Shown here: in pieces, positions 34,350 to 55,039 of the stretch
How positions within the stretch are numbered: position 1 is the first letter of the stretch
Layout of the letters: each line of letters opens with the position of its first letter
Assembly (NCBI RefSeq): GCF_016863035.1
Contig: NZ_BOOC01000018.1
Location: forward strand, 1-64,000
Length of the DNA stretch: 64,000 bases
From: Microbispora corallina
Lineage (GTDB): Bacteria > Actinomycetota > Actinomycetes > Streptosporangiales > Streptosporangiaceae
Direction of reading: 5' to 3'
The notes under the pieces: model-generated
Databases searched by the model: none
What the model saw: only the letters and a program-made list of their open reading frames with translations
What the model was told of the DNA's origin: nothing
Made by a program: the position numbers and the translations under genes

Positions 34350-34689
34350 GACCCCCTGCGGCCTGCGGAGACTGCCCTGTCACCGGACCTGTCAGCCCCG
34401 TTGACGGTGGAGTGCTGCCTATGTAACATCTGAGCAACTCGATGTAAGGATCTTGCAACTTAACCATCAGATTTTTGCAGTTCCACGCAAGCTCCGGCAG
34501 GAATGCACTGCGTCCGTGCGCGCCCGCCACCGTCACCTTCTCCAGAGAGGTCAACGAGGTGATGTCGGCTACGGCATTGGGCAACCGGTCGCCGCCCTGA
34601 CCACGGCTTTTCCCCACCCCCCAGCGGAATGCGGAGTGAGACCCGCGGATCGGGGCCGTCGGTCGGATTCCGGAGACGAAGGAACGCAA

Positions 34690-37600: not shown

Positions 37601-38982
37601 CGTGGCTGTACGGCAACGAGACCGGCCCGGGCAACTCCCCGAGCGCCGGCAGCCCGCGGCACATCTACGACGAGGCCAACGTGCTGCTCGGGACGACCGT
37701 CGCGGCCGGCCACAAGATCAGACTGCAGAAGGACGCGGCCAACACCTCCACCTACGCGATCGACTTCGTCAGCCTCGAGCAGGCGAACGTCATCGCCAAC
37801 CCCGATCCCGCGACGTACACGGTGCCCGCCGGCCTCACCCACCAGGACGTGCAGAACGCCCTGGACAAGGTCCGGATGGACACCACCGGCACGCTCGTCG
37901 GCGTCTACCTGCCGCCGGGCGACTACCAGACGTCGGGCAAGTTCCAGGTGTACGGCAAGCCGGTCAAGGTCGTCGGCGCCGGTCCCTGGTACACCCGGTT
38001 CTACGCGCCGTCCACGCAGGAGAACACGGACGTCGGGTTCCGGGCCGAGTCCTCGGCCAACGGGTCGACCTTCTCCGGCTTCGCCTACTTCGGGAACTAC
38101 ACCTCCCGAATCGACGGGCCGGGCAAGGTGTTCGACTTCTCCAACGTCGCGAACATCACGATCGACAACATCTGGGTCGAGCACCAGGTCTGCATGTACT
38201 GGGGCGCGAACACGGACAACATGACGATCACCAACTCGCGGATCCGCGACACGTTCGCCGACGGCGTCAACATGACGAACGGCAGCACCGACAACCTGGT
38301 CTCGAACAACGAGGCGAGGACGACGGGCGACGACAGCTTCGCGCTGTTCTCGGCCATCGACGCCGGCGGGGCCGACGAGAAGAACAACGTGTACCAGAAC
38401 CTGACCGCGATCCTCCCCTGGCGCGCGGCCGGCGTCGCGGTGTACGGCGGGTACGCCAACACGTTCAAGAACATCTACATCGCCGACACGCTCACCTACT
38501 CGGGCATCACGATCAGCTCGCTGGACTTCGGATACCCGATGAACGGCTTCGGCGCGAGCCCGCCCACGCAGTTCGACAACATCTCGATCGTCCGCGCGGG
38601 CGGTCACTTCTGGGGCGCCCAGACCTTCCCGGCCATCTGGCTCTTCTCGGCCTCGAAGGTGTTCCAGGGCATCCGGATCAGCAACGTCGACATCGTCGAC
38701 CCGACCTACTCCGGGATCATGTTCCAGACGAACTACGTCGGCGGTCAGCCGCAGAACCCGATCAAGGACACCGTCCTCACCAACATCTCGATCTCGGGCG
38801 CGCACAAGAGCGGTGACGCGTTCGACGCCAAGTCGGGCTTCGGCCTCTGGGCGAACGAGATGCCCGAGGCGGGCCAGGGCCCGGCGGTCGGCTCGGTCAC
38901 CTTCAACAACCTCAAGCTGAGCGACAACGCTCAGGACATCAGGAACACCACGTCGACCTTCACCATCACCGTCAACCCGTAG
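34690..38982 (+). CDS. Secreted multi-domain GH87 alpha-1,3-glucanase (mycodextranase-like)
   Basis: A 1430-aa secreted protein. Signal peptide 1-31; two discoidin domains (about 32-170, 175-310); two FN3 domains (313-405, 408-500, both with TASTDNVGVTGYDVYA-like strands); a third discoidin (503-640); two CARDB domains (644-755, 756-870); a CBM6-like module (877-1036); then a right-handed beta-helix (1038-1430). The helix carries Asp1191 (FADGVN) and Asp1214-Asp1215 (TGDDSF). The 23-residue spacing matches the three catalytic Asp residues of GH87 alpha-1,3-glucanases, so substrates are fungal-wall or bacterial alpha-1,3-glucans. ATG 34690 has AAGGA 6 nt upstream. A strong hairpin ends the gene. 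Confidence 0.9.
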   Translation: MSDRKFVRSVAAVAAACLLVVAGPLSPAKAAGGPNLAAGKTATASSSNSPYTAGNLNDGNQGSYWESSGSSFPQWAQVDLGSTTSVDQVVLKLPSSWEARNETLSVQGSTDGSGFSTVVGSTSYTFGPGSGNTVTINFAATSTRYVRVNITANTGWAAAQLSEIEVYGAASASGNLAQGKPTKESGHSDVYASSNATDGNQATYWESVNNAFPQWLQVDLGASVSVNKVVLKLPSGWGARTQTLSVQGGTDGTNFSTLVASAGYSFTPSSGNTVTITFTAATVRYVRVNITANTGWPAGQVSELEVYGPSGTGDTQPPSAPSNLAYTQPASGQIKLTWSASTDNVGVTGYDVYADNQLRTSVAGNVLTYTDTQPDSATVSYYVRARDAAGNQSGNSNTVTRQGATGDTQAPTAPGDLAYTEQTAGQIKLTWTASTDNVGVTGYDVYANNALRGSVAGNVLTYTDTQPTTATVSYYVRAKDAAGNQSIASTTVTRNGTGGGGSNMAVGKPITASSYTFTYVAANADDNDVTTYWEGAGGSYPNTLTVQLGANAVVNSIVLKLNPDPAWSTRTQTIQVLGREQSASSFTSISGPATYTFNPSSGNTVTIPVSATVADVRLTFTANSGAPAGQVAEFQVIGVPAPNPDLTVTALSASPAAPVETDSVTLSATVKNAGTAASGATNVAFFLGGSKVGSAAVGALAAGASATVSAGIGPRDAGSYALSAKADESGAVIEQNETNNDFAASSPLVVRPVDSSDLIASPVSWSPGNPANGSTVTFSVAIKNQGTVASASGAHGVTLTITNDSGTVVKTLTGSYSGAIAAGSTTSPMNLGTWTAANGRYTVKTVIANDANELPVKQANNTTNQPFFVGRGANMPYDTYEAEDGVVGGGATVVGPNRTIGDLAGEASGRKAVRLTSTGNYVEWTTKAPTNTLVTRFSIPDSAGGGGTDATLDVYVDGTFLKAVNLTSKYAWLYGNETGPGNSPSAGSPRHIYDEANVLLGTTVAAGHKIRLQKDAANTSTYAIDFVSLEQANVIANPDPATYTVPAGLTHQDVQNALDKVRMDTTGTLVGVYLPPGDYQTSGKFQVYGKPVKVVGAGPWYTRFYAPSTQENTDVGFRAESSANGSTFSGFAYFGNYTSRIDGPGKVFDFSNVANITIDNIWVEHQVCMYWGANTDNMTITNSRIRDTFADGVNMTNGSTDNLVSNNEARTTGDDSFALFSAIDAGGADEKNNVYQNLTAILPWRAAGVAVYGGYANTFKNIYIADTLTYSGITISSLDFGYPMNGFGASPPTQFDNISIVRAGGHFWGAQTFPAIWLFSASKVFQGIRISNVDIVDPTYSGIMFQTNYVGGQPQNPIKDTVLTNISISGAHKSGDAFDAKSGFGLWANEMPEAGQGPAVGSVTFNNLKLSDNAQDIRNTTSTFTITVNP

Positions 38983-39057: not shown

Positions 39058-40209
39058 TCAGCCGACCGAGCAGGCGGTGCCGTTCAGGTTGAAGCTCGAC
39101 GGGGTGCCGTTCGAGCCGTTCCAGGTGCCCTGGAAGCCGAAGGAGGTGTTCCCCCCGGCGGGGATCGACCCGTTGTACGACAGGTTCTTCGCCGTGACGG
39201 ACGATCCGCTCTGGTTCACGGTGGCGTTCCAGGCGCTGGTGATCTGCTGGCCGTTCGGGAACGTGAAGCCGAGCGTCCAGCCGTTGACCGCGCTCGACGA
39301 GGTGTTGGTGACGGTGACGTTGGCCGTGAAGCCGCCCTGCCACTCCTGCTTGCTGTAGGAGACCCGGCAGGCGCCGCCGCCGCCCGGCGTCGGGGTCGGC
39401 GTGGGGGTCGGGCGAGGCGTGGGCGTCGGGGTCGGCGTGGGGCTGGGAACCGTGCCGCCGACGCTGTAGGAGAAGTTGTTGACCGCGAGCCCGGCGCCGC
39501 CCACCCAGGGCTCGAACCCGGCCTGGACGCTGGTCAGGTACCACGACCGCTGGGCGTAGCCGCGGCTCACGGCGTCGTCGTAGAAGGTGCGCACGGGGAA
39601 GCTGATCGAGTTCGTCGGCGAGGTCCGCACGTAGGAGATGACGTTCCAGCCGATGTTGCCCTCCCACACGTCCCACGTGCCGCCGGCCAGGCTGGCCGTA
39701 CCGACGCGCGAGCCGACCGGCTGGACGGATCCGGTGTGGTTGAGCCAGACCATGATCTCGGCGCCGGTGTTCTGGCCGTCGGTTCGTGGGGTCGGGTCGA
39801 ACCAGATGTCGTACGCCGCGTCGTAGACGCCCGAGCCGGGGTAGCTCATGCTGACGCTCGTCTGCACCGAGTTGAACTGGCTGTTCGACGCCTGCATCGG
39901 CAGCCCGCTACCGGAGGAGCAGTTGGCGTAGTGACAGCCGGCGTAGATCGCGGGGTACGCCGCCGGGGCGCCGCCCGTGTTGTTGTGGTTCGCCTGCGTC
40001 ACCGTGAACCCGGTGTTCGTGACGTTGATGCACTGCGTCGTGGAGGCTCCCCACACGTTGTTCATGACGACGTACTTGCCGCCCTGGATGGTGGTCGAGC
40101 CGTACTTCTCGCAGATCGTCGTGTCCGCCCGGGCCGTCTGACCGACGACGAGCGAGGCGGCGACGGAGCCGAGCATGACCAGGCCCGCCGTGATCATTCG
40201 CATCTTCAT
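39058..40209 (-). CDS. Secreted GH12 endoglucanase with CBM2
   Basis: A 383-aa enzyme. Signal peptide 1-29 (ending QTARA-DTT); GH12 beta-jelly-roll (about 30-250) with nucleophile Glu151 in [10 protein letters not shown] and acid/base Glu233 in [10 protein letters not shown]; a (PT)n linker with RP inserts (255-276); and a C-terminal CBM2 cellulose-binding domain (280-383) with [21 protein letters not shown] and [13 protein letters not shown]. Expected to cut cellulose or beta-glucan. ATG 40209 is chosen from the signal peptide; a second ATG lies at 40203. A perfect GAAAGTTTC dyad about 100 bp upstream suggests shared control with the xylanase. Confidence 0.93.
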
Positions 40210-40304
40210 ATCCGGACGATAGGCAGGGCGTCTCCCGGGGCGACACGACGCCGTCGGGCCGCCCGGCCGAAAGGCCCTCTGGCCTGGCCGGACGTCCCTC
40301 CCTG

Positions 40305-40321
40305 AGGTGAAAGTTTCACCT
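40305..40321. promoter_or_regulatory. GAAAGTTTC-type perfect operator upstream of GH12 gene
   Basis: A 17-bp perfect dyad: AGGTGAAA, central G, TTTCACCT. Same GAAAnTTTC core as the sites in the xylanase/GH87 spacer. About 96 bp before the GH12 ATG; also 111 bp before the small gene at 40432. Confidence 0.7.
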
Positions 40322-40431
40322 GGACGATCATGCCGAGCACGGGGTGTGACCGTTCCTGGCGGGCCATTTCTTTGGATATTTATGGTGATATGTAGCTGCT
40401 TGTCGGTTTTAGGGGTGGGTACGGGCGGGGC

Positions 40432-40656
40432 ATGGCCGAACGACACAAGGACGAGCCGGCCGTGGGTGACGAGGTCACGTGGCGCAGCCATGGCTCGACC
40501 GCCTCGGGCGAGGTCAAGAAGAAGATCACCAAGAGGACCGAGGAGGCCGGGCGCACGGTGGACGCCTCGCCCGACGACCCCCAGTTCCTCGTCGAGAGTG
40601 AGAAGAGCGGCAGGCAGGCCGTGCACAAGCCCTCCGCGTTGAAGCCGAAGGACTGA
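40432..40656 (+). CDS. HVA1/TUDOR-like (DUF2945) small protein
   Basis: A 74-aa basic, hydrophilic protein. [23 protein letters not shown] and [22 protein letters not shown] match the DUF2945 (hypervirulence-associated TUDOR-like) family. The strands form a small SH3-like barrel; function is not settled. ATG 40432 is the only sensible start. The kinase gene follows 25 nt later on the same strand. Confidence 0.85.
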
Positions 40657-40681
40657 CTCCGGGGCGTCCGGCGACCGGGAG

Positions 40682-42091
40682 ATGGGCGGCAGGCGGAGGC
40701 TGTCGGTCACCAGGCGCATCACCCTGTTCACCGGCGTCCTGGTGACGGTGCTCTGCGCGCTGCTGGCGGTGGTGATCCTGGCGGCCGTCCAGTTCCTGAC
40801 CAACGGCTACGTCAAGGACGAGCTCGTCGGCGTCGGCGGGCGGGTCGTGGCGGAGGTCGAGTCGGGCCGGCTGGTGCGGCCGATCACCCCGGGTCCGGTC
40901 GGCGACATCCAGGTCGTCGACCAGAACGGCCGGGTCGTCGCCGCCACCGCCGCCCTGCGGGGCAGGCCGGCGATGGCGTCGCTCCGGCCAGCCGGCTACC
41001 ACGGGATCGCGGACGGCACCGTCTGCGGGGACGCCTTCGCGCGGCGTGGCTGCCACATCGTGGTCGCGCAGTGGGCCCGGGGGCCCGACGGGCCGCGCGT
41101 CGTCTACGCCGCCGCGCCGCGGGTCCCGTTCTGGACCCACCCCGCGCTCGCCGCCCTGGTCGTGGGCGGGTCCGCCCTGCTGGTCGGCGTGACGCAGTGG
41201 CTGGCCGTACGCGGCGCGCGCACGGCCATGGCACCGGTACGGGCGATCCGGGCCGAGCTCGACGAGATCAACGCGACGTGCCCGCAGCGGCGGGTGCCGG
41301 TCCCGCCGGGCGGCGACGACATCCACGATCTGGCGGTGGGCGTGAACCGCACGCTGGCGCGGCTGGAGGCCGCGCTGGAGCAGCAGCGGCGGTTCGCCAC
41401 GGACGCGTCGCACGACCTGCGGACTCCCATCACGGCCATGCGGGCGGAGGCCGAGGACGCCCTCCTCTCGCCGGAGAGCACGACCGTTCCCGTGCTGGCC
41501 CGCGTGATGCTGCGGAGCCTCGACCGGCTGCAGGCCCTCGTCGGCGACCTGCTGACCCTCGCCCGCCTCGACGCGGACCTGCGGGGGGCCGAGGACCGGG
41601 TCGACCTGGCGGACCTCGTCGAGGCGGAGCTGCGGCACCGGCCGCCCCCGGACGAGCGCCTGACGTGCTCGCTCCAGGCCGGGGTGGTGGTCGTCGGCGA
41701 CCGGCTGCGGCTCGGCCGCCTGCTCGCCAACCTCCTCGACAACGCCGAACGGCACGCCGCGAACGCGATCTCGGTCATCGTCCGGCTCGACGCCGCAACC
41801 CCCGCCTTCCCGGACGGCACGGCCGTCCTCGAGGTGAACGACGACGGGGCCGGTGTCGCACCGGACAAGCGCGAACTGGTCTTCCAGCGCTTCACCCGGC
41901 TCGACGCCGCGCGCAGCAGAGACGCCGGGGGGAGCGGGCTCGGCCTGCCGATCGCCCGCCAGATCGCCGAGGCGAGCGGCGGGACGCTCCGCATCGAGGA
42001 CAGCGAGCTCGGGGCCCGGTTCGTCGTGCGCCTCCCGGCCGCGCCCCCGGACGGCGGCGGGTTGGGACGGCCTGACGCGGGGCACCGGTGA
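40682..42091 (+). CDS. Orphan sensor histidine kinase
   Basis: A 469-aa kinase: helix 1 ([22 protein letters not shown]), an extracytoplasmic sensor of about 110 aa with a Cys pair ([14 protein letters not shown]), helix 2 ([18 protein letters not shown]), HAMP, HisKA with [19 protein letters not shown], and HATPase with [28 protein letters not shown] and [10 protein letters not shown]. The layout is like the kinase at 26885. No response regulator is encoded nearby on either strand. ATG 40682 has GGGAG adjacent, closer than usual. Confidence 0.88.
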
Positions 42092-42510: not shown

Positions 42511-43077
42511 TCAGTGGACCGCGCGGGTGCGCTTGCCGGGCACGATGCTCAGCCGGACGAGCGTGGGGAGACGGCGCAGGCCGAGCGTGGTGCGCAGATC
42601 GGGCACGGCCTCGTCGTGCAGCCGGGTCACCAGGGCGCCGAGGTCGGCCGGCTCCCGCGCCGACACGCCGAGGTCCAGGCGCGGCGCGTCGGGCCGGCCG
42701 CGTAGCACCGCGCGCGCCCGGCGGACGGCCGGATAGCCCATCACCTGGCCCGCCACGGCGTGGCTCGCGGGCCCGCCGTCGACCTCGGTGACCCCGGACA
42801 TGCCCGACTCCAGGCGCAGCCGCCGCAGCCGGTCCAGGCGCAGCAGCGAGACGAGCCAGGCGAGCCCGATGATCGCGAGCACCACCCCCGCCGCCGCGAC
42901 CGCGGGCCAGAACCACGGCCGGGTGGCCGCGAGCGCGGCCGCGCCCGGCTCCAGCAGTGGGCGGCGGGCGGCCGACGCTCCGAACGCGCCCAGTCCACGC
43001 GCGAGCGCCAGCCCGCCCACCACGAGCAGGACGAGCCCGACGAGGGCGAGGCCCGTCCGGTTGCCGCTTCGCTTCAC
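42511..43077 (-). CDS. amaP: AmaP, Asp23 membrane anchor protein
   Basis: A 188-aa protein with two membrane helices (LALVGLVLLVVGGLALARGL; FWPAVAAAGVVLAIIGLAWLVSLL) and a cytoplasmic Asp23-like tail (VMGYPAVRRARAVLRGR, LDLGVSAREPADLG). This two-helix hairpin with a Gls24-like end is the AmaP arrangement, which tethers Asp23 to the membrane (family knowledge). GTG 43077 has AAGGAG 8 nt upstream. It is the last gene of a six-gene minus-strand operon that starts at 45128. Confidence 0.82.
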   Translation of the reverse strand: MKRSGNRTGLALVGLVLLVVGGLALARGLGAFGASAARRPLLEPGAAALAATRPWFWPAVAAAGVVLAIIGLAWLVSLLRLDRLRRLRLESGMSGVTEVDGGPASHAVAGQVMGYPAVRRARAVLRGRPDAPRLDLGVSAREPADLGALVTRLHDEAVPDLRTTLGLRRLPTLVRLSIVPGKRTRAVH

Positions 43078-43104: not shown

Positions 43105-43713
43105 TCAGGACGGCCCGTGCGTCCGCACCCGCACGGACATGGGGTGGGCCGGGGCGAGCCGGTCGAGTTCCCGCTCGACGGCGGCCCGGACGCGCTCCCC
43201 CACGCCGGCCGTGTCGCGCAGGTCGGTGTCCGCCCGCACGTCGGCCCGCCACCCGTGCACGCGGGCCCGCGCGTGCCGCACGCCGTCCACGTGGGAGGCG
43301 GCCGCGGTCAGCACGGCGGACAGCGTCCGGCGCGGGACGCCCACCGCCAGATCGGGGTCGCCGGTGGTCAGCGTGACCATCCGTCCCCGGCCCGGGACCA
43401 GCGCGATCAGCAGGAGGAGCAGGCCGAGCAGAACGAGCGCGCTCGCCACCGCGAGCGCCCGGCCGTCGTCCCACGTCGTGGTCCGCAGCCACCGCGCCAC
43501 CTGGTCGTACGGCACGATGCGGACCGGGTTGCCCAGGAGCGTCGTGATGACCTGCACGGCGGTCACGACCCCGAGGGCCAGCAGCACGAGCGCCACGATG
43601 CCGGCCGGGCCCGCGCGGGTGGGCCGGAAGGCCCGGGCCACCCCCCGCGACTCGGGGCGGCGGGCCGGGACGAAGAACCGCGGGCCCTCCGACGGGCCGT
43701 GACCGGGCGTCAT
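43105..43713 (-). CDS. DUF6286-like membrane protein of the Asp23 cluster
   Basis: A 202-aa protein: a Pro/Arg-rich start, one helix GPAGIVALVLLALGVVTAVQVI, a short linker, a second helix LAVASALVLLGLLLLLIALVPG and a C-terminal Asp23-related domain (TVTTGDPDLAVGVPRRTLSAVL, DGVRHARARVHGWRADV). It resembles DUF6286 proteins that sit beside Asp23 and AmaP in actinomycetes. ATG 43713 overlaps the Asp23 stop by 4 nt (ATGA), so expression is coupled. Probably a second membrane anchor or scaffold. Confidence 0.8.
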   Translation of the reverse strand: MTPGHGPSEGPRFFVPARRPESRGVARAFRPTRAGPAGIVALVLLALGVVTAVQVITTLLGNPVRIVPYDQVARWLRTTTWDDGRALAVASALVLLGLLLLLIALVPGRGRMVTLTTGDPDLAVGVPRRTLSAVLTAAASHVDGVRHARARVHGWRADVRADTDLRDTAGVGERVRAAVERELDRLAPAHPMSVRVRTHGPS

Positions 43714-44039
43714 GGCCGATCCTCCTCGCGGGTCCGGGGCGCGGGACGCTGCGCCGGCACGAGCTCCACCACGTCGATGTCGACGTTCTCCACCGAGACG
43801 CCGGTGAGCTCGCGCACCCGCTCCCGCACGTGCTCCCGGATGTGCGCGGCGATCCCGCGCACGGGAGCCGGGTAGCGGACGGTCAGGTCGAACCGCACCG
43901 CGGCGACGGACCCGCTGAGCGAGCCGGAGGCGTGCGGCCTGCCGGCGACCTGGTCGTCCTCCCTGGCCACCTCTTCGGCGATCTTCATGAACGCGCGGTC
44001 CGAGATCGACGTCGTCCCGCGCGTCCCGGGCACGGTCAT
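43710..44039 (-). CDS. Asp23/Gls24 family protein (short copy)
   Basis: A 109-aa Asp23/Gls24 protein: ISDRAFMKIAEEVARED at the front, SVAAVRFDLTVRYPAPVRGIAAHIREHVRERVRELTG and VSVENVDIDVVELV. The final strand VxNVDIxV is the family's hallmark. ATG 44039 overlaps the DUF2273 stop (ATGA). It likely assembles with the other Asp23 copies on AmaP. The function of Asp23 in actinobacteria is envelope-stress homeostasis by analogy with Staphylococcus. Confidence 0.85.
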   Translation of the reverse strand: MTVPGTRGTTSISDRAFMKIAEEVAREDDQVAGRPHASGSLSGSVAAVRFDLTVRYPAPVRGIAAHIREHVRERVRELTGVSVENVDIDVVELVPAQRPAPRTREEDRP

Positions 44040-44224
44040 TGCCGCCGCGGATGCATCGTCGTCGGCATGTGGACGCCGCCTTCGAGGATCAGGCCGACGA
44101 AGAAGCCGACGATTCCGAGGACCAGCACGATGAGGAACGCGTTGAGCCCGCCGAACGCGCCCACGACTCCGAGCACCGTGCCGAACAGGAGCCCGGCCAG
44201 GGCCCATACGGGAAACTCCTCCAT
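44036..44224 (-). CDS. DUF2273-like small membrane protein
   Basis: A 62-aa protein, almost all membrane: MEEFPVWALAGLLFGTVLGVV, GLNAFLIVLVLGIVGFFVGLILEGG, then a short tail. DUF2273 proteins with this two-helix design sit between Asp23 genes in many Gram-positives. ATG 44224 has GAGGAAGG 7 nt upstream. Coupled to both neighbours (2-4 nt spacing or overlap). Confidence 0.85.
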   Translation of the reverse strand: MEEFPVWALAGLLFGTVLGVVGAFGGLNAFLIVLVLGIVGFFVGLILEGGVHMPTTMHPRRQ

Positions 44225-44226
44225 GA

Positions 44227-44628
44227 TCAACCTTCCTCTCGCGTGCCGCCGGCGCTCTCCACGTCGGCGACGATCACGTCGACAGGCCGGCCGTCCGCCA
44301 GGTCGGCGACGGCGTCCCGTACGGCTTCGGCGATCTCCGGCAGCGGCCGTCCGTACCGCGCCACGATGTGGATCTCGATCCGGTCGTCCCTGACGACCAC
44401 GCCGGGGACGAGCCCTCCCGGCAGGTACGTGGCCACCGCCCCGAACGGCCCGCGCGACAGGCGGACCACGTCGGGGCACGACTCCACCCGCGCGGCCACG
44501 TCCGCCGCGGAGACGTCCTTCGGGCGTCCGGTCGTCGTCCCGGTGGCGGTCTCCCCGTGCGTCGCCCCCTCGGCGGGGGCTCCGGGCGCCTCTGCGCGCC
44601 GGCTCGTCTCGGCCGGACCCGTGCTCAT
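44227..44628 (-). CDS. Asp23-like protein with low-complexity N-terminus
   Basis: A 133-aa protein. The first 50 residues are disordered (Ala/Thr/Glu-rich); the rest is Asp23-like: AADVAARVESCPDVVRL, GLVPGVVVRDDRIEIHIVARYGRPLPEIAEAVRDAVAD and VDVIVADVESA. The core has the length and strand order of the family but lacks the usual IA-x-x-V start. ATG 44628 overlaps the previous stop (ATGA). Confidence 0.8.
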   Translation of the reverse strand: MSTGPAETSRRAEAPGAPAEGATHGETATGTTTGRPKDVSAADVAARVESCPDVVRLSRGPFGAVATYLPGGLVPGVVVRDDRIEIHIVARYGRPLPEIAEAVRDAVADLADGRPVDVIVADVESAGGTREEG

Positions 44629-45128
44629 TGGACTCGCGGCTCCCCGTCCGTTCCGGACGGCTCCTCCTGCCGGGGCAGGTGCACGTCGTCGACGGCGATG
44701 TTGACCTCGGTGACCTCCAGCCCGCACATGCGCTCGACGGCGTCGATGACGTGGCGGCGGACGGCCTCCGCGAGATCGGGGATGGCCAGGCCGTACTCGA
44801 CCACGAGGTGGATGTCCACGGCGGCCTGCCGCTCGCCGACCTCGACGTCGATGCCGCGCGTCACCCCGTCCTCCGCGCCCAGCCGGCCCTTGAGGGCGCC
44901 GATGGCGCGGGCCGTGCCCGTGCCGAAGTCGTGCACGCCCTCGATCTCGCGGGCGGCCATGCCGCCGATCTTCGCCACGACCTCGTCCGCGATGACCGTG
45001 CGGCCCCGCTCGGTGGCCAGGCCCTTTCCCGTTTGCGACGGCGACGCGTGCGAACCGCCGAACCCCGGCCGGTCGCGCTTCTCCTGGACAGTCACGCCCC
45101 CCGCGGTTGGCGTGTTGGTCTCCGTCAT
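44625..45128 (-). CDS. Asp23/Gls24 family envelope stress protein (long copy)
   Basis: A 167-aa Asp23 protein. A disordered N-terminus is followed by RGRTVIADEVVAKIGGMAAREIEGVHDFG, the defining IAxxVVxKIAGxAAxExxGV motif, then VTRGIDVEVGERQAAVDIHLVVEYGLAIPDLAEAVRR and VTEVNIAVDDVHL. ATG 45128 has GGGGAG 5 nt upstream and is the first gene of the minus-strand operon. A sigma-B-like promoter (45189-45212) sits 61 bp upstream. The gas vesicle cluster starts on the other side. Confidence 0.9.
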   Translation of the reverse strand: MTETNTPTAGGVTVQEKRDRPGFGGSHASPSQTGKGLATERGRTVIADEVVAKIGGMAAREIEGVHDFGTGTARAIGALKGRLGAEDGVTRGIDVEVGERQAAVDIHLVVEYGLAIPDLAEAVRRHVIDAVERMCGLEVTEVNIAVDDVHLPRQEEPSGTDGEPRVQ

Positions 45129-45188
45129 GTGACTCCCCCGCTCCGACCCTGCGGTTGAGGAGGCGCTTCCCCTCGATTCACGCCCGTG

Positions 45189-45212
45189 ATACCCGGTTTG
45201 CGTAGAGTAATC
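45189..45212 (-). promoter_or_regulatory. Sigma-B-like promoter of the Asp23 operon
   Basis: On the minus strand GATT (45209-45212), a 14-nt spacer and GGGTAT (45189-45194) fit the GnnT-N14-16-GGGTA(T/C) consensus of actinobacterial stress sigma factors. It lies 61 nt upstream of the ATG at 45128. Matches are seen by eye only. Confidence 0.5.
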
Positions 45213-45369
45213 ATTCCTGTTCGGGCGAGGTTGGGTCACCGGAGACCCTCGAAACCCTCAAGCCTGACGAAGGACGGCACGGACCCGCGATCTCGGCGAT
45301 TCCGCCGAACAGATGGCCCTAAATCACTGCTTAGCCCGCCCCAAATCTGTCCGTTATGGGCGTGTATGA

Positions 45370-45394
45370 GTTTTTATGTCCACCTCTAGGGCAT
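45370..45394 (+). promoter_or_regulatory. Sigma-B-like promoter candidate of the gas vesicle operon
   Basis: GTTT (45370-45373), a 15-nt spacer and GGGCAT (45389-45394) fit the stress sigma consensus except for C in place of T at one -10 position. About 94 nt before the ATG at 45488. The 359-nt spacer shows no gene. Confidence 0.4.
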
Positions 45395-45487
45395 GCATAC
45401 CGTTCGATCGGGAGCGCACCGTCACAGCGGCGCCGCCCCCGCGGCCTGACCGGCGCTAACAGGGCGACCCGGCGAGGAGGGGCGATC

Positions 45488-46039
45488 ATGAAAGACGGAC
45501 TGAAGGTGGCCCTGGCAGTCATCGCAGGCTATTACCTCGGTCGGCATCACAAGCTGCGCTTCGCCTTCATGCTGGCGCTGGCGATCCTGGCCGGGCGGCT
45601 GAAGGGCGAGGGAGCCGTCGGGACCATCCTGGAGCAGGGCACCAAGATCCTGGGCAGCTCCCCCGAGCTGGGCAAGATCACCGAACGTGTGCGCGGCGAC
45701 CTGCTCGATATCGGCAAGGCGGCGGCCATGCGCGCCACGAGCAAGCAGATCGACTCCCTCAGCGACAGGCTGCACGAGCGGGCCGAGGCGCTGCGGCAGC
45801 CGAAGTCCCGCCGTGCCGAGGAGGAGGAAGAGGAGCCGCAGGAGGGCCGCCGGCGGGTCCCCCGGCCCGGCGCCCGCCGTCCCGCCCCCCGCGAGCCGGA
45901 GCCCGCCGAGGAGTACGACGAGGACGAGGAGTACGAGGAGCCGTACGACGAGGGCGAGGAGGAAGAGGAGCCGGAGCCTGAGGAGCGGCCCCGTCCCCGT
46001 CCGCGGCCGACCCGACCGGTGACCCGCTCGCGGAGGTGA
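45488..46039 (+). CDS. GvpY-like gas vesicle cluster protein
   Basis: A 183-aa protein: a hydrophobic N-terminus (LKVALAVIAGYYLGRHHKLRFAFMLALAILAGRL), a helical middle (KITERVRGDLLDIGKAAAMRA, QIDSLSDRLHERAEALRQ) and a Glu/Pro/Arg-rich tail (about 115-183) with E-runs and PRPRPRP. It resembles the membrane-associated protein called GvpY in streptomycete gas vesicle clusters (by context and N-terminus). ATG 45488 has GAGGAGG 8 nt upstream. It is the first gene of the gvp operon, and its stop lies 5 nt before the next ATG. Role unknown; perhaps attachment to the membrane. Confidence 0.7.
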   Translation: MKDGLKVALAVIAGYYLGRHHKLRFAFMLALAILAGRLKGEGAVGTILEQGTKILGSSPELGKITERVRGDLLDIGKAAAMRATSKQIDSLSDRLHERAEALRQPKSRRAEEEEEEPQEGRRRVPRPGARRPAPREPEPAEEYDEDEEYEEPYDEGEEEEEPEPEERPRPRPRPTRPVTRSRR

Positions 46040-46044
46040 GTCCG

Positions 46045-47553
46045 ATGACGGAGGAACGGCGGCAGGCACCGGGACCGGAGGGCGCGGCGCTGCCCACGCA
46101 CCGGCTCACTCAGGAGTTCCAGAACCTCGCGACGGCGGTGGCCGAGCGGGCGCTCGCGTCGGTCACCGACCGGGTGGACGCCCTGGCAGGACGGCTGACC
46201 GACTACGTGGAGCACGGCGGCACCGACCTGCTGAGCGCGGTGACCGGCAAGGAGGGCGGCGGCGGCCGGCTCAGGGCCGCGGCCGGCCGGCTGGCCGGCG
46301 GCGGCGCCCAGGGCGGCGGCCTGCTCGGCACGCTCGCCGGCCGTTTGACCGGCGGCGACGGGGGCGGCGTGCTCAAGGGCCTCGCGGAGCGGCTCACGGG
46401 CGGGGACGAGGGCGGCATCCTCGGGGCCCTGACGGGCGGCGACGGCGGCGGGAGCCATCCGGTCCGGGCGGCCCTCATGGCCTTCACCAAGGAGAAGATC
46501 AAGGGCGTCTTCGGCGGCGGAGGAGGAAAGGGCGCCAAGGGGGGCCGGGGCAAGAAGCTCAAGCTCACCAACATCGTCGAGTCGCTCGACATCGGCGCCC
46601 CCCTGCGCCTCGTCTACAACCAGTGGACCCAGTTCGAGGACTGGCCGGGCTTCATGAAGAAGGTCGAGACCGTCGAGCAGAAGTCCGACGAGAAGCTCGG
46701 ATGGCGGGCCCAGGTGTTCCTGTCCCACCGGAACTGGGAGTCCACGATCATCGAGCAGGTCCCGGACAGCCGCATCATCTGGCGGTCGCAGGGGCCCAAG
46801 GGGTACGTCAACGGGGCAGTGACGTTCCACGAGCTGTCGCCCGAGATGACCCGTGTGCTGCTCGTGCTCGAGTACTACCCGCATGGCCTGTTCGAGCACA
46901 CCGGGAACCTGTGGCGGGCTCAGGGCCGGCGGGCGCGGCTGGAGTTCAAGCACTTCCGGCGGCACGTGATGACGAACGCCCTGCTGCACCCGGACGAGAT
47001 CGAGGGCTGGCGGGGCGAGATCCGCGACAGCCAGGTCGTGAAGGACCACGAGACCGCCCTGCGCGAGGAGCGGGAGCGCGAGGAACGGGAGGCGCGCGAG
47101 CGCGGCGAGGAACCCGGGGAGGAGAGGCCGGAGGAGGCCGCCGAAGAGGAGATCCCGGAGGGGGAGGCCGCCGAAGAGGAGCCGTACGAGGAGGAAGAGG
47201 AAGAGGAAGAGGAGCCCGCCGAGGAGGAGGCCGAAGGCGAGGAGGAGCCCGAGGAAGAGCCCGAGGAAGAGCCCGCCCGGGCCCGGCCGCGCGAGTACGC
47301 CACGGCCGGAGCGGGGAGCCGAACCCGGACGGCGAGCGGGACGGCGCGCAGGAGTCCTCCGGCCCGCCGGGCGGAGGAGCCCCGCGCGGAGGAGCCGCGG
47401 ACCGGCCGCGCGGAGGAGCGGGGCGGCGCCCGCGAGAGCGGCGGCGAGGAGGACGAGGGCGGCGAGCGCCCGCGCGGCCCGGTGCGGCGGCGCAGGCCGC
47501 CGGCCGAGGAGCCGGCGCGGCCCGTCCGCCGCAGACGGCCGCCGGAGGAATGA
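46045..47553 (+). CDS. GvpZ-like SRPBCC domain protein
   Basis: A 502-aa protein. A helical N-terminus (1-55), Gly-rich linkers with GGDGGG repeats (about 70-165), an SRPBCC/cyclase-type lipid-binding domain (about 175-330: ESLDIGAPLRLVYNQWTQFEDWPGFMKKV, then WESTIIEQVPDSRIIWRSQG), then a very long charged tail (Glu-rich, about 345-430) and an Arg/Pro-rich end. The streptomycete GvpZ protein has the same SRPBCC centre. ATG 46045 has GGAGGTGA 5 nt upstream; a GTG at 46036 overlaps the previous stop but is less likely. Probably a gas vesicle accessory factor. Confidence 0.78.
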   Translation: MTEERRQAPGPEGAALPTHRLTQEFQNLATAVAERALASVTDRVDALAGRLTDYVEHGGTDLLSAVTGKEGGGGRLRAAAGRLAGGGAQGGGLLGTLAGRLTGGDGGGVLKGLAERLTGGDEGGILGALTGGDGGGSHPVRAALMAFTKEKIKGVFGGGGGKGAKGGRGKKLKLTNIVESLDIGAPLRLVYNQWTQFEDWPGFMKKVETVEQKSDEKLGWRAQVFLSHRNWESTIIEQVPDSRIIWRSQGPKGYVNGAVTFHELSPEMTRVLLVLEYYPHGLFEHTGNLWRAQGRRARLEFKHFRRHVMTNALLHPDEIEGWRGEIRDSQVVKDHETALREEREREEREARERGEEPGEERPEEAAEEEIPEGEAAEEEPYEEEEEEEEEPAEEEAEGEEEPEEEPEEEPARARPREYATAGAGSRTRTASGTARRSPPARRAEEPRAEEPRTGRAEERGGARESGGEEDEGGERPRGPVRRRRPPAEEPARPVRRRRPPEE

Positions 47554-47743: not shown

Positions 47744-48148
47744 ATGACCGTAGCCGTACCATCGGGGGGCGGCGGGCTGCCCGGCCGCTCCACCGGTTCG
47801 GGCCTGGCGGACGTCATCGACACGATCCTGGACAAGGGTCTGGTCATCGACGCCTACGTCCGGGTCTCTCTCGTCGGCATCGAGGTCCTCACCATCGACG
47901 CGCGCGTCGTGGTGGCCAGCGTCGACACCTATCTCCGGTTCGCGGAGGCGGTGAACCGCCTCGACCTGTCGCAGACCCAGGAGGGCCTGCCCGAGCTGAT
48001 CGGCGACATGACGCAGGGGGTCGCGCACAACAAGTCGAAGGGCGTGGCCAAGGGCGTCCTGGAGGCGGCCGGGGAGAAGCTGCAGGACCTCATGTCGGGG
48101 TACGCGGAAGAGCCCGCTCCCCGTTCGCGGCGGCGGCGGGAGGACTGA
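47744..48148 (+). CDS. gvpA: GvpA major gas vesicle structural protein
   Basis: A 134-aa protein with the GvpA core at about 20-75: [44 protein letters not shown], the most conserved segment of the gas vesicle shell. A C-terminal extension ([20 protein letters not shown]) is typical of streptomycete-type GvpA proteins. The core beta-hairpin and flanking helices polymerise into the gas-permeable cylinder. ATG 47744 has GGAGGAG about 6 nt upstream. Two further GvpA-family genes (gvpJ, gvpS) follow. Confidence 0.93.
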
Positions 48149-48150
48149 CC

Positions 48151-48945
48151 ATGTCGAGCTTCACCGAGGCGTCCGGAGCCACCGGAGCGGCGGGCCCCGG
48201 CGGGACGACGGCCTGCTACGTGTACGGCATCGTCCCGGAGGACGTGGAGATCAGTGAGGACGCGGTGGGGGTCGGCGAGCCGCCCGGGCGGATCAAGCTG
48301 GTCCGGCACGGCGAGATCGCCGCGCTGATCAGCGACGTCGACGTGGACCGCCCGCTCGGCCGGGCGCAGGACCTGGTGGCCCACGAGCAGTTGCTCGACG
48401 CGGCGGCCGCGGAGGTCCCGGTGCTGCCTTTGCGCTTCGGGGCGGTCGTGACGACGGCGGACGCGGTCGTCGAGGAGTTGCTGGCCCCCCACCACGACCA
48501 GTTCGCGGCGGCGCTGAAGGAGATCGAGGGCCGCACGCAGTACGTCCTCAAGGCCCGCTACCTCGAACGGCCCGTCCTGATGGAGGTCCTGTCGGAGAAC
48601 CCGGAGGCCGGGCATCTGCGCGACCGCATCAGGGACCTGCCGGAGGACGCCACGCGCAACGAGCGGATCCGGCTCGGCGAGATCATCACGTACGCCATCT
48701 CGGCGAAACGGGAGGCCGACAGTCAGGACGTGGTCGACCGGTTCGCCTCCTGCACGGCGGCCGCCGTCGTCCGGGAGCCCACCCACGAGCGGGACGCCGC
48801 CCACGTCGCGTTCCTCGTGGAGGACGAGCGTCAGGCCGACTTCGACCGCTGCGTGGAGGACCTGCGCCGCGACTGGGCCGACCGGGCCGAGATCCGGCTG
48901 CTCGGGCCGATGGCGCCGTACGACTTCGTGGTGACCCAGCGCTAG
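48151..48945 (+). CDS. gvpF: GvpF/L family gas vesicle protein (GvpF)
   Basis: A 264-aa protein with two alpha/beta subdomains. The start, CYVYGIVPEDVEI, leads to VRHGEIAALISDVDVDRPLGR, EVPVLPLRFGAVVTTADAV and, near the end, EDERQADFDRCVEDLRRDWADRAEIRLLGPMAPYDFV. All are GvpF/L landmarks. GvpF binds GvpA and assists shell assembly (family knowledge). ATG 48151 is 2 nt after the gvpA stop. Its paralogue GvpL is at 50065. Confidence 0.9.
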   Translation: MSSFTEASGATGAAGPGGTTACYVYGIVPEDVEISEDAVGVGEPPGRIKLVRHGEIAALISDVDVDRPLGRAQDLVAHEQLLDAAAAEVPVLPLRFGAVVTTADAVVEELLAPHHDQFAAALKEIEGRTQYVLKARYLERPVLMEVLSENPEAGHLRDRIRDLPEDATRNERIRLGEIITYAISAKREADSQDVVDRFASCTAAAVVREPTHERDAAHVAFLVEDERQADFDRCVEDLRRDWADRAEIRLLGPMAPYDFVVTQR

Positions 48946-48954
48946 GGAGGTGCC

Positions 48955-49188
48955 GTGGGACTGCTGAGCCTGCTCTTCGGCTGGCCGCTCGCCCCCGTCA
49001 AGGGCGTCATCCGGCTCGGCGAGCTCATCCAGGAGCAGGTCGAGCGCGAGATGCGCGACCCCGCGGCCGTACGGCGCCGGTTGGAGGCGATCGAGGAGGC
49101 GAGGCGCTCGGGCCGGATCTCCGAAGAGGAGGAGGCCCGGGCGGTCGAGGAGGTCCTCCGGACGATGACCGGCACACGGAGAGGGTGA
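48955..49188 (+). CDS. gvpG: GvpG gas vesicle protein
   Basis: A 77-aa protein: MGLLSLLFGWPLAPVKGVIRLGELIQEQVEREMRDP, then a charged helix (RRRLEAIEEARRSGRISEEEE). The FGWPLAPVKGV motif and the coiled-coil tail are typical of GvpG, an assembly factor. GTG 48955 is 9 nt after the gvpF stop with AGGGAGG upstream. Confidence 0.9.
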   Translation: MGLLSLLFGWPLAPVKGVIRLGELIQEQVEREMRDPAAVRRRLEAIEEARRSGRISEEEEARAVEEVLRTMTGTRRG

Positions 49189-49194
49189 CGACGG

Positions 49195-49659
49195 GTGCCT
49201 CCCAGGCGACGGGACCGCCCGGACGAGGGCGACGACCGTTATTACGAGGAGGAGTACGACGAGGAGCGGTACGCCGGGGACGACGGCGACGAGGGGGCTC
49301 CTGTCCAGGGGCGCCCCGTCGCCGGACGGCGGCCGCGCCGGGACTCGGTCGTCGTCCAGGCCGAGCCGCAGCGGCCCCGCCGGCGTCCGCTCACCGCGAC
49401 CTCGGCGGGCCGGGCCGGCCTGCGGCACATCGCCGACCTCACGGCGCGGGAGCCGGAGGCCGTCACGCTGGTCCAGCCCGTGGAGAACGGCTGGGTCGTC
49501 GACGTGGAAGTCGTCGAGGACCACCGCATCCCCTCATCGAGCGACATCATCGCGCTCTACGAGGCGCAGATGGACGAGGAGGGCAACCTGCTGTCGTACC
49601 GCCGCACGCGCCGCTACCGGCGCGGCGCGGGCGACCTCGGCGGAGGGTACGGACGATGA
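49195..49659 (+). CDS. gvpO: GvpO gas vesicle protein
   Basis: A 154-aa protein. The first 65 residues are disordered and charged (D/E/R-rich, RYYEEEYDEERYAGDD). The folded part is GvpO: GLRHIADLTAREPEAVTLVQPVENGWVVDVEVVEDHRIPSSSDII, LYEAQMDEEGNLLSYRRTRRY. GvpO is needed for vesicle formation in haloarchaea and actinomycetes. GTG 49195 is 6 nt after gvpG with GGAGAGGG upstream. In Streptomyces gvpO lies at the operon front; here it is internal. Confidence 0.88.
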   Translation: MPPRRRDRPDEGDDRYYEEEYDEERYAGDDGDEGAPVQGRPVAGRRPRRDSVVVQAEPQRPRRRPLTATSAGRAGLRHIADLTAREPEAVTLVQPVENGWVVDVEVVEDHRIPSSSDIIALYEAQMDEEGNLLSYRRTRRYRRGAGDLGGGYGR

Positions 49660-50072
49660 CCGATCCCCGATCGCGCCCGGTGATGCGCGAGTCGTACGCC
49701 CCTCCGGCCCCCATGGGCGGCAGGGAGTCGACGAACCTCGGCGACATCCTCGAACGCGTCCTCGACCGGGGCGTGGTCATCGCCGGGGACATCCGGGTCA
49801 ACCTGCTCGACATCGAGCTCCTCACGATCAAGCTTCGGCTCGTCATCGCGTCGGTCGACACGGCCCGCGAGCTCGGGATCGACTGGTGGGAGCACGACCC
49901 GTGGCTCAGCGGCCGGGACAGGGAGCTCAAGGACGAGAACCGCAGGCTGCGCGAGCGCCTGGCCGCCGTCGAGGAGCGGCTGGTCGAGCGCGAGGCCGTC
50001 GAGGCGGGCGACCACGCCCCCGACGAGGCGGCCGCGCAGCGGCGGCGCGGAACGGAGAGGCGCCGTGAGTGA
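49656..50072 (+). CDS. gvpJ: GvpJ gas vesicle protein (GvpA family)
   Basis: A 138-aa GvpA-family protein. The core is NLGDILERVLDRGVVIAGDIRVNLLDIELLTIKLRLVIASVDTARE (about 27-72), and then WWEHDPWLSGRDRELKDENRRLRERL with a coiled-coil tail. GvpJ is a minor shell/tip component. ATG 49656 overlaps the gvpO stop (ATGA). Confidence 0.9.
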   Translation: MTDPRSRPVMRESYAPPAPMGGRESTNLGDILERVLDRGVVIAGDIRVNLLDIELLTIKLRLVIASVDTARELGIDWWEHDPWLSGRDRELKDENRRLRERLAAVEERLVEREAVEAGDHAPDEAAAQRRRGTERRRE

Positions 50073-50988
50073 GTACGGCATCTACCTGTACGCGGTGACC
50101 CCGGACGTCAGCGGGAACGCGACCGCAGGCACGACCCCCGACGAGGCCACAGGCACGACCGCGGGCGCCGGGCCCGGCACGCGCCCGGAGAGGGCCGCGG
50201 ACGTCAGCCGGGACACGAGGCGGGGCACCGGCCCCGGTCCCGGTGGCGGCACGGCCCGGCTGCACGGCGTGCTCGGCGGGCCGGTCCGCCCGATCCGTCA
50301 CGCCGGGCTGGTGGCCCACGTCGGCGAGGTCCCGCTCGACCAGTTCGGCGAGGGGCCGCTGCGCCGGCTGCTGGAGGACCTCGACTGGGTGGAGGGGGTG
50401 GCCCGGGCTCATCACCACGTGGTCGAGGCCCTCGCGGCGGCCGGCCCCGTCGCCCCCGTCCGGCTGGTGACGGTCTACACCGGCGAGGACCAGATCCGCG
50501 ACCTGCTCGACCGGCGCCGCGACGACTTCGCCGACCTGCTGGCGCGGGTGGCCGGGCGGCACGAATGGGGCGTCAAGGCGTACGTCACCCGGGCTGCCCC
50601 GCCGGCGCCCCCGGCCGTCCCCGCGTCCGGCCGCGGCTCGGCCAGCCCCGGCACGGCGTACCTCCAGCGTCGCAAGGCCAGCCTGCGCAGCAGGGAGGAC
50701 GTGTGGCGCGCGGCGGCCGAGCGTGCCGAGCGCCTGCACGCGGCGCTCGGCGAGATCGCCGTGGCCGGGCGGCGGCACCGGCCCCAGGACCCCCAGCTGT
50801 CCGGCCGGAGCGATGTCATGGTGCTGAACGGCGCGTACCTGGTCGACCCGGACCGGGACGGGGAGTTCGCCGCGGCCCTCGACGCGTTCCGGGGCGAGGG
50901 CATGGACGTGGAGCTGACCGGGCCGTGGGCGCCCTACTCGTTCACCTCCCTCGATCTGGGCTCCGACCGCGGAGGGGGCACGCGGTGA
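50065..50988 (+). CDS. gvpL: GvpF/L family gas vesicle protein (GvpL)
   Basis: A 307-aa GvpL: EYGIYLYAVTPDVSGNATAG, a long disordered Thr/Gly/Pro insert (about 20-65), then RPIRHAGLVAHVGEVPLDQFGEGPLRRLL, VVEALAAAGPVAPVRLVTVY and VMVLNGAYLVDPDR, GPWAPYSF. The insert is unusual compared with GvpF in the same operon. GTG 50065 overlaps gvpJ by 8 nt. Assembly chaperone by family. Confidence 0.88.
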   Translation: MSEYGIYLYAVTPDVSGNATAGTTPDEATGTTAGAGPGTRPERAADVSRDTRRGTGPGPGGGTARLHGVLGGPVRPIRHAGLVAHVGEVPLDQFGEGPLRRLLEDLDWVEGVARAHHHVVEALAAAGPVAPVRLVTVYTGEDQIRDLLDRRRDDFADLLARVAGRHEWGVKAYVTRAAPPAPPAVPASGRGSASPGTAYLQRRKASLRSREDVWRAAAERAERLHAALGEIAVAGRRHRPQDPQLSGRSDVMVLNGAYLVDPDRDGEFAAALDAFRGEGMDVELTGPWAPYSFTSLDLGSDRGGGTR

Positions 50989-51221
50989 CGATCGACGGCT
51001 CCAGGGGCAGGGCGCTCGCCGCCGAGGGACGCCTGCCGGCCGAGCGGGTGGCCCTGGTCGACCTGCTCGACCGGCTGCTCGCGGGCGGCGTGGTCGTGAC
51101 CGGCGAGCTGGTTCTGTCCATCGCCGACATCGAACTGGTCCGCATCTCGCTGCGAGCGCTGCTGGCCTCGGTGCGGGACGCCGACGAGGAGGAGGGCGAC
51201 GATGAGCCGTCCTGGCCCTGA
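50985..51221 (+). CDS. gvpS: GvpS gas vesicle protein (GvpA family)
   Basis: A 78-aa short GvpA-family protein: RVALVDLLDRLLAGGVVVTGELVLSIADIELVRISLRALLASV (about 23-65) and an acidic tail. It matches GvpS/GvpM-type minor components. GTG 50985 overlaps the gvpL stop (GTGA). Confidence 0.87.
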   Translation: MTIDGSRGRALAAEGRLPAERVALVDLLDRLLAGGVVVTGELVLSIADIELVRISLRALLASVRDADEEEGDDEPSWP

Positions 51222-51573
51222 CGAGGTCCGGGCGCCCGAAGGGCCCGAGGAGGAGGCGCGCGAGGGGATCGGCCTGCGTCTCGACCCCGCGAGATCGGGC
51301 CAGTGGCGCCTCAACACCGACCCCGAGACCGTCCAGCGCGACCTCAGCCGCCTGGTGCTGACGCTCGTCGAGCTCCTGCGGCAGCTCGTGGAACGGCAGT
51401 CCATCCGCAGGATGGAGCAGGGCGACCTGTCCGACGAGCAGATCGAGACGCTCGGCCTGACGCTGATGCGGCTGGAGGAGGCGATGACCGACCTCTGCGA
51501 CCGGTTCGGCCTGTCTCCCAGCGATCTGAACCTCGATCTCGGCCCGCTCGGGACCCTACTGCCGACGGACTGA
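51202..51573 (+). CDS. gvpK: GvpK gas vesicle protein
   Basis: A 123-aa helical protein: RLDPARSGQWRLNTDPETVQRDLSRLVLTLVELLRQLVERQSIRRMEQG and IETLGLTLMRLEEAMTDLCDRFGLSPSDLNLDLGPLGTLL. RQAIRRME- and LNLDLGPLGxLL-type motifs define GvpK. ATG 51202 overlaps gvpS by 20 nt. It is the last recognisable gvp gene in the operon. Confidence 0.92.
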   Translation: MSRPGPDEVRAPEGPEEEAREGIGLRLDPARSGQWRLNTDPETVQRDLSRLVLTLVELLRQLVERQSIRRMEQGDLSDEQIETLGLTLMRLEEAMTDLCDRFGLSPSDLNLDLGPLGTLLPTD

Positions 51574-52801: not shown

Positions 52802-52827
52802 TCCGCAGTGCCGTGAGGGAGAGTCCG

Positions 52828-53865
52828 ATGCAGTTGCCCGAACCCAGGGGGCCGGTCACCGCCCGGCTCGTCGAGGAGCTCGTCCGGCCGCCGCATCCGC
52901 TGGACGCGCCGCCCCCGTGGTCCGGCGAGCCGGCGATCGACGACGAGGACCTGCAACTGGCCCTGTTCGTCTGTTACGAGCTGCACTACCAGGGCTTCGA
53001 CGGGGTGGACGACGGCTGGGAGTGGGAGCCCTCGCTGCTCGCCCTGCGGGCACGTCTCGAAGAGCGGCTGGAGCGCGCGCTGGCGCGGATGGTCCCCCGG
53101 CCGCCGGTCCCGGCGCCGCGCGACGTCCCCCGGGCGCTCGCCGCCCTGGTCGAGGAGTACGACGACGGGCCCTCGCTGTCGGCCTTCCTGCGGAGCCGGG
53201 CCGACCTCGGGCGCTTCCGCGAGTTCGTGGTGCACCGGTCGATCTACCAGCTCAAGGAGGCCGACCCGCACACCTGGGCGATCCCCCGCCTGCTCGGCCG
53301 GCCGAAGGCCGCGCTCGTGGAGATCCAGGCCGACGAGTACGGCGGGGGCCGTCCTGGACGCATGCACGCGGAGCTGTTCCGGGCCACCATGCGCGGGCTC
53401 GGCCTCGACGACTCGTACGGCGCCCACCTCGACCGGGTTCCCGCCGTCACACTCGCCATCAGCACCACGATGTCGCTGTTCGGCCTGCACCGCCGCCGCC
53501 GCGGGGCGCTGGCCGGCCACCTCGCGGCGTTCGAGATGACCTCCTCGCGGCCCAACCTCCGCTACAGCCAGGGCCTGCGCCGCCTCGGCGGCGACGCCGC
53601 CGCCCGCCGGTACTACGACGAGCACGTGCAGGCCGACGCCGTCCACGAGCAGATCGCCGCCCACGACCTGTGCGGCGGGCTGGCCGCCGGGCAGCCCCAC
53701 CTGACCGGGGACATCCTGTACGGCGCGGCCTGCGCGCTCGCCCTCGACCGGCTCTTCGCCCGGCACGTGCTCGACCGCTGGCGGCAGGGCCTGTCGTCCC
53801 TCCGGTCGCCGCTGCCGGACGCCGTCGCGGCGGCGGCGTCCGGGGCCGGGGCGGGGCGCGGGTGA
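52828..53865 (+). CDS. Iron-containing redox enzyme (haem-oxygenase-like diiron fold)
   Basis: A 345-aa protein of the haem-oxygenase-like diiron family (annotated as 'iron-containing redox enzyme'). Candidate ligands: YELHYQG (Glu/His), EFVVHRSIYQLKEADPHTWAIPRL (His/Glu), EIQADEYGGGRPGRMHAELF, and DEHVQADAVHEQIAAHDL (Glu/His). ATG 52828 has GGGAG 6 nt upstream; an upstream GTG at 52798 lacks one. It probably performs O2 activation; it sits with CDGSH and methyltransferase genes in other actinomycetes (recalled, not checked). Confidence 0.82.
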   Translation: MQLPEPRGPVTARLVEELVRPPHPLDAPPPWSGEPAIDDEDLQLALFVCYELHYQGFDGVDDGWEWEPSLLALRARLEERLERALARMVPRPPVPAPRDVPRALAALVEEYDDGPSLSAFLRSRADLGRFREFVVHRSIYQLKEADPHTWAIPRLLGRPKAALVEIQADEYGGGRPGRMHAELFRATMRGLGLDDSYGAHLDRVPAVTLAISTTMSLFGLHRRRRGALAGHLAAFEMTSSRPNLRYSQGLRRLGGDAAARRYYDEHVQADAVHEQIAAHDLCGGLAAGQPHLTGDILYGAACALALDRLFARHVLDRWRQGLSSLRSPLPDAVAAAASGAGAGRG

Positions 53866-54863: not shown

Positions 54864-55039
54864 GAGCCGTCGCAGAACGGCTTGGTCCCCGACCGGCCGC
54901 ACCGGCACAGCGCCACCGTGGCGCGGCCCGGGTCGATCGTCCGCCCGTCCTGCGTGACCAGCGTGAACGGCCCCCTCAGCAGCAGGGGGCCGTCCTCGCA
55001 CGGGGTCACCGTCACCAGGTCATCCGGCTCGTCCCTCAT
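54812..55039 (-). CDS. CDGSH iron-sulfur domain protein
   Basis: A 75-aa protein with the complete 2Fe-2S signature CRCGRSGTKPFCDGSH (three Cys and His). GPLLLRGPFTLVTQDGR precedes it. Such small proteins carry a redox-active, pH-sensitive cluster. The start ATG 55039 has GACGAGCC only downstream; upstream ribosome site weak. It converges with the glycosyltransferase and may supply electrons to the diiron protein two genes away. Confidence 0.9.
   Translation of the reverse strand: MRDEPDDLVTVTPCEDGPLLLRGPFTLVTQDGRTIDPGRATVALCRCGRSGTKPFCDGSHKLVGFRAASEPDPPA

Follow-up and report, generated by a model that had tools for sequence, protein, structure and literature searches.

Back-to-back promoters of the SigB/SigF class probably place the Asp23/AmaP and gas vesicle (gvp) operons of Microbispora corallina in one co-inherited stress module, a reading drawn from sequence that we hold with somewhat more confidence than doubt. 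It is built on the gene content of the locus, promoter matches in excess of chance expectation, boxes and linkage that are both conserved, the apparent repeated origin of that linkage, and the presence of two SigBFG sigma factors beside HATPase_c_2 genes. The arrangement of these two operons, both already tied to stress, is new in genomic terms, and each half of it has precedent. For the gvp operon of Streptomyces coelicolor, regulation by SigB has been reported, as has induction by salt, by acid shock and by antibiotics that act on the cell envelope (PMC5733086, PMC6629963, PMC2631018, PMC3123327). Staphylococcal asp23 is a classical SigB gene, with transcription in Staphylococcus epidermidis depending almost exclusively on SigB (PMC6440968), and the staphylococcal protein is held under the membrane via AmaP (PMC6954212). 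A contrary datum is that an Asp23 gene of Streptomyces venezuelae goes down under ethanol shock (PMC9769785). No literature report pairing Asp23 with gas vesicles was found, an absence that is weak evidence as subscription papers lay outside the search.

Within the window, the whole 64-kb stretch of DNA analysed, Asp23a and gvpY begin with ATG codons at 45128 on the reverse and 45488 on the forward strand, both with a Shine-Dalgarno sequence. The 359-nt divergent gap (45129-45487) reported from the sequence-only reading is exact, and its counts of six Asp23/AmaP-type genes and ten gvp genes agree with profile hits, conserved position and homology (Table 1). Most adjoining reading frames of the Asp23 operon touch or overlap, and the start of the short Asp23-like gene overlaps the end of Asp23a. 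Asp23a and Asp23b score above the Pfam cut-off for PF03780 and carry the Asp23 domain, whereas the two AmaP candidates, at 51.5 and 40.2 bits, fall below the 55 bits of NF033218 and are called AmaP-like rather than AmaP. As in the staphylococcal asp23-amaP system, Asp23 is combined with AmaP-type membrane proteins, and asp23 transcription starts there nearly only at SigB promoters (PMC6440968, PMC6954212); the actinobacterial set differs in adding the short Asp23-like gene, two AmaP-like genes below cut-off and the divergent gvp operon.

Table 1. Features of the divergent Asp23-gvp locus, with positions in the window
Feature	Position	Strand	Basis or remark
AmaP-like membrane anchor protein	42511..43077	-	NF033218 E 9e-14, 51.5 bits against a cut-off of 55
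DUF6286 / AmaP-like membrane protein	43105..43713	-	PF19803 E 1e-27; NF033218 AmaP E 2.8e-10, below cut-off
Asp23b	43710..44039	-	PF03780 E 7.5e-8
Small hydrophobic membrane protein	44039..44224	-	sequence; position conserved; family search without hit
Short Asp23-like protein	44227..44628	-	PF03780 E 0.002, weak, below curated cut-off; position conserved
Asp23a, Asp23/Gls24 family	44625..45128	-	PF03780 E 1.8e-28
Divergent intergenic region	45129..45487	.	length 297-382 nt in most linked loci
Asp23-facing SigB/F-type promoter (predicted)	45189..45212	-	-35 GATTAC 45212-45207, N12, -10 GGGTAT 45194-45189, 60 nt to ATG
Conserved GTGACCCAACCTCGCCC element	45223..45239	-	directly upstream of Asp23 -35; kept in linked clade (L052-L057)
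Conserved TGTCCGTTAT element	45348..45357	+	starts 22 bp upstream of gvp -35; 12/15 positions of 45343-45357 invariant in Microbispora
gvp-facing SigB/F-type promoter (predicted)	45370..45394	+	-35 GTTTTT 45370-45375, N13, -10 GGGCAT 45389-45394, 93 nt to ATG
gvpY homologue, gvp operon gene 1	45488..46039	+	tblastn to gvpY position (gvpG-gvpZ interval) in Streptomyces-type clusters
gvpZ homologue, Polyketide_cyc/START domain	46036..47553	+	PF03364 E 4e-16; position as SCO6504 gvpZ
gvpA	47744..48148	+	PF00741
gvpF	48151..48945	+	PF06386 E 5e-62
gvpG	48955..49188	+	PF05120
gvpO	49195..49659	+	PF05800
gvpJ, GvpA family	49656..50072	+	PF00741
gvpL	50065..50988	+	PF06386
gvpS, GvpA family	50985..51221	+	PF00741
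gvpK	51202..51573	+	PF05121

The gvp operon is, by gene content, an actinobacterial gvp cluster with gvpA, F/L, G, O, J, S and K plus gvpY and gvpZ, the last two named by position and similarity to Streptomyces-type clusters, which have the order O-A-F-G-Y-Z-J-L-S-K (PMC5839063). The same ten families (O A F G Y Z J L S K) make up gvp1 of S. coelicolor (SCO6499-6508), for which SigB-class control has been reported (PMC5733086, PMC6629963, PMC3123327, PMC5839063), but the order in Microbispora is permuted, with gvpY-gvpZ first. The Streptomyces-type gvp clusters examined lack an adjacent Asp23 operon, save for one genome with an Asp23 gene after gvpK (L137).

The two boxes described earlier, GATT-N14-GGGTAT facing the Asp23 operon and GTTT-N15-GGGCAT facing the gvp operon, are both present in the gap as written. 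They were evaluated with a matrix based on the 23 SigB-family promoters mapped in S. coelicolor (PMC8346170), to which the Microbispora locus contributed nothing. Four sites of at least 13 bits occur in the window (128 kb of strand sequence) and two of these are the gap promoters, each facing its own operon. At the background rate from 1.93 Mb of strand sequence, 0.02 sites are expected in the gap and the probability of two or more is 1.9e-4, a conservative estimate because the background counts true sites too. The Asp23 box, GATT-N14-GGGTAT, has the SigB/SigF-class form (GNNT, 14-16 nt, GGGTAY), as does the gvp box (GTTT/GNNT, 14-16 nt, GGGYA), whose per-locus p is 0.015-0.055 in Microbispora. 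Both follow the S. coelicolor SigB-family promoters (GNNT-N14-16-GGGTAY) in -35/-10 sequence and spacing, although GATTAC, at the Asp23 -35, belongs to the less usual forms, the mapped set containing a single GATTCA; the mapped promoters SCO6014p and SCO2026p show that GGGCAT serves as a genuine -10 (PMC8346170). A single bidirectional promoter was ruled out, the two promoters lying about 157 bp apart (-35 to -35).

A pattern search of the whole 8.36-Mb genome gave a single GATT-N14-GGGTAT and nine matches to GTTT-N14/15-GGGYAT. Among the remaining eight gvp-type matches, two lie clearly before a plausible start with a Shine-Dalgarno sequence, preceding an alcohol-dehydrogenase-like gene and a phosphoribosyltransferase-like gene, and the others appear chance-like. 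In this genome, a phosphoribosyltransferase-like gene with a GTTT-N15-GGGTAT site 28 nt ahead of it (L134, 1501-1525) is a candidate further regulon member.

Across 11 Microbispora species the boxes rank with the best-conserved parts of the gap, 11/12 positions of the Asp23 box and 10/12 of the gvp box being invariant, compared with 11/96 in its middle. Both promoters are found, always paired, in 15/15 Microbispora genomes. The exact motifs lie divergently about 160 bp apart in 14 of these, the fifteenth having GGTTAC at the Asp23 -35, so that GRTTAC-N12-GGGTA is kept on the Asp23 side in all 15. Each motif has about one copy per genome in 15/15 Microbispora; since the count of GATTAC-N12-GGGTA is about what base composition predicts, this uniqueness alone is no evidence, but the fixed position is. 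The independent matrix and this footprint rule out a chance match of loose boxes, and the locus is a genuine divergent promoter pair.

Loci at which the two operons are apart allow each promoter to be viewed separately. Upstream of gvpY, GTT[TC]-N15-GGG[TC]A is present at 18 of 24 unlinked loci, with none antisense and 0.12 expected from shuffles; gvp loci without a gvpY hit upstream (L063, L078, L080 and L085) have a gvp-type match before gvpA instead, three at p <= 0.02 and the fourth, in L063, at p 0.015. The gvp promoter, being kept without linkage, is thus ancient in the family, and the assignment of its box to the SigB class, made at the outset by inspection, is well supported, also by the reported SigB dependence of S. 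coelicolor gvp (PMC5733086, PMC6629963). The same assignment of the Asp23 box is reasonably supported by its conservation throughout Microbispora and by the strict motif G[AGT]TT-N14-16-GGGTA[TC], found upstream of 5 of 20 unlinked Asp23 operons with none antisense and 0.07 expected; these five stem from two genera (g6, g5) and are few independent cases. At linked loci outside Microbispora, the Asp23 -10 GGGTA is mostly kept, g51 lacking even that, and the -35 scores poorly against the S. coelicolor matrix (p 0.15-0.8), while a good SigB-type site was looked for and not found at the adjacent loci L137 and L138. The Asp23 promoter thus appears solid in Microbispora and plausible elsewhere.

The family was sampled with 150 genomes, 77 of which carry gvpK. 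In at least 14 of these 77 gvp-bearing genomes (five Microbispora, four g23, one g40, one g62 and three g51), the opposite strand carries an Asp23 gene no more than about 7 kb away. For 27 further gvp loci, inspection of up to 16 kb showed no Asp23 gene alongside (L066 stops at a contig edge), and 20 Asp23 operons located elsewhere, mostly with the same gene order, are without gvp. Most family relatives hold both operons unlinked. The synteny proposed as a check in the sequence-only reading therefore holds in 15/15 Microbispora and four more genera, but is not general in the family. Outside the family, 2 of 51 gvp-bearing genomes are linked: an f19 genome has the Asp23 operon upstream of the gvp operon in tandem on the same strand (L138, 5048-9850), and in a Streptomyces-type genome an Asp23 gene follows gvpK by about 110 nt on the same strand (L137, 12722-13591).

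One clade (99/97) of the Asp23a tree unites the copies from Microbispora, g23, g40 and g62, and those of g51, f19 and the Streptomyces-type genome lie elsewhere. Parsimony on this tree gives four changes in adjacency, two of them forced by well-supported branches alone, and a four-protein gvp tree separates the linked lineages in the same way; the L137 rows form long branches whose exact placement is unsure. With both trees separating the linked clade from three other linked lineages, adjacency apparently originated some four times, taking three arrangements (divergent, Asp23-then-gvp tandem, and gvp-then-Asp23). It might instead be neutral, going back to one ancestral chance landing, with the other cases arising by chance in genomes that hold several Asp23 and gvp loci. 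The restriction of linkage to the minority of gvp-bearing family genomes counted above would agree with this, as would the two cases outside the family, each singly compatible with chance. Adjacency has nevertheless been kept in every Microbispora genome and three same-clade genera despite divergence of Asp23a to about 60% identity, and four separate lineages with three arrangements and two concordant trees are hard to assign to chance, for which reasons we regard neutrality as rather improbable.

Two genes in the M. corallina genome score above the TIGR02980 cut-off for SigBFG sigma factors (309.6 and 274 bits), and both adjoin a HATPase_c_2 gene, the fold of RsbW-type anti-sigmas. At one locus (L158, 6985-9620) the genes for a SigBFG sigma, an RsbW-like protein and a pyridine-nucleotide oxidoreductase stand in this order, and a strong SigB-type site, GTTTCC-N12-GGGTAG, directly precedes the last of them.

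From the two SigB-class promoters we infer one shared sigma regulon as what would best explain the locus. General, osmotic or envelope stress would free a SigB/F-type sigma from an RsbW-type anti-sigma, and RNA polymerase would then initiate at two independent promoters, about 50 nt upstream of Asp23a and about 85 nt upstream of gvpY, so that the products of the gvp genes would be made together with the membrane-anchored Asp23/AmaP scaffold. Each operon would have possessed such a promoter already, or gained one, irrespective of linkage, and the divergent pairing would join both into one co-inherited module. This scheme presumes that a SigB-class sigma recognises the promoters, that induction is simultaneous and that the linkage is retained because the products are needed together. 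Counter-evidence to one regulon is that the promoter forms differ (GRTTRC-N12 against GTTT-N13) and that the strict motif is absent at 15 of the 20 unlinked Asp23 loci; the two promoters may be read by different SigB paralogues. Both would then be of the SigB/F type, each used by another paralogue or at another time, and the operons would be neighbours with no common regulon. The different -35 and spacer classes, a genome with two SigBFG sigmas, and the partly distinct promoter sets of the nine SigB homologues of S. coelicolor (PMC8346170) are in line with such a division. Many promoters are cross-recognised by those same homologues, however, and unconnected regulons leave adjacency in four lineages unexplained; we consider separate control unlikely, if still worth weighing.

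Besides the boxes, the gap holds two more conserved elements (Table 1). Throughout Streptosporangiaceae (gvp loci L053-L086), a TGTCCGTTTT-like element begins about 22 bp ahead of the gvp -35 and is possibly an activator or UP-type site; no known regulator to match it was found. A shared activator acting through this element was not established, as only 2 of 20 unlinked Asp23 loci pass 0.05 with the TGTCCGTTTT matrix and controls do about equally (Fisher P 0.025 against 0.031 for a control set consisting partly of the heads of gvp operons). Housekeeping or ECF sigma factors, or an upstream activator, might still drive the operons and leave the boxes secondary, as the two additional elements and the wide occurrence of the gvp element could suggest. 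The most strongly conserved positions are, however, the SigB-type boxes themselves, and the gvp element keeps a fixed distance from the -35, as expected of an accessory site, which makes this explanation quite improbable compared with promoters read by a SigB-class sigma.

The role of gvp genes in soil actinobacteria is puzzling: their disruption in Streptomyces is reported to leave buoyancy unchanged (PMC5839063), and they are responsive to salt and to antibiotics against the cell wall; a non-buoyancy role has been proposed earlier in the literature for S. coelicolor. The pairing in every Microbispora genome checked, together with seemingly separate origins elsewhere, suggests that soil-actinobacterial gas vesicles belong with the cell-envelope stress response. 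The conserved and repeated association with an operon for envelope homeostasis, each side having a matching stress promoter, offers a concrete partner for this question, and the compact region is suited to reporter and deletion tests of the gvp role. It can be speculated, against our own expectation, that Gvp proteins and the Asp23/AmaP scaffold form one envelope-stress machine in soil actinobacteria whose genes selection has repeatedly united, for example with assemblies of Gvp proteins that dock at the membrane or buffer it during osmotic shock.

Other genes in the window include, downstream of the gvp operon, those for a haem-oxygenase-like iron-containing redox enzyme (52825-53865, +) and a CDGSH iron-sulphur protein (54812-55039, -). 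Elsewhere in the window, the genes for an alpha-1,3-glucanase-type protein with F5/8 and CARDB domains (34453-38982, +) and a GH12 cellulase with CBM2 (39058-40803, -) adjoin one another.
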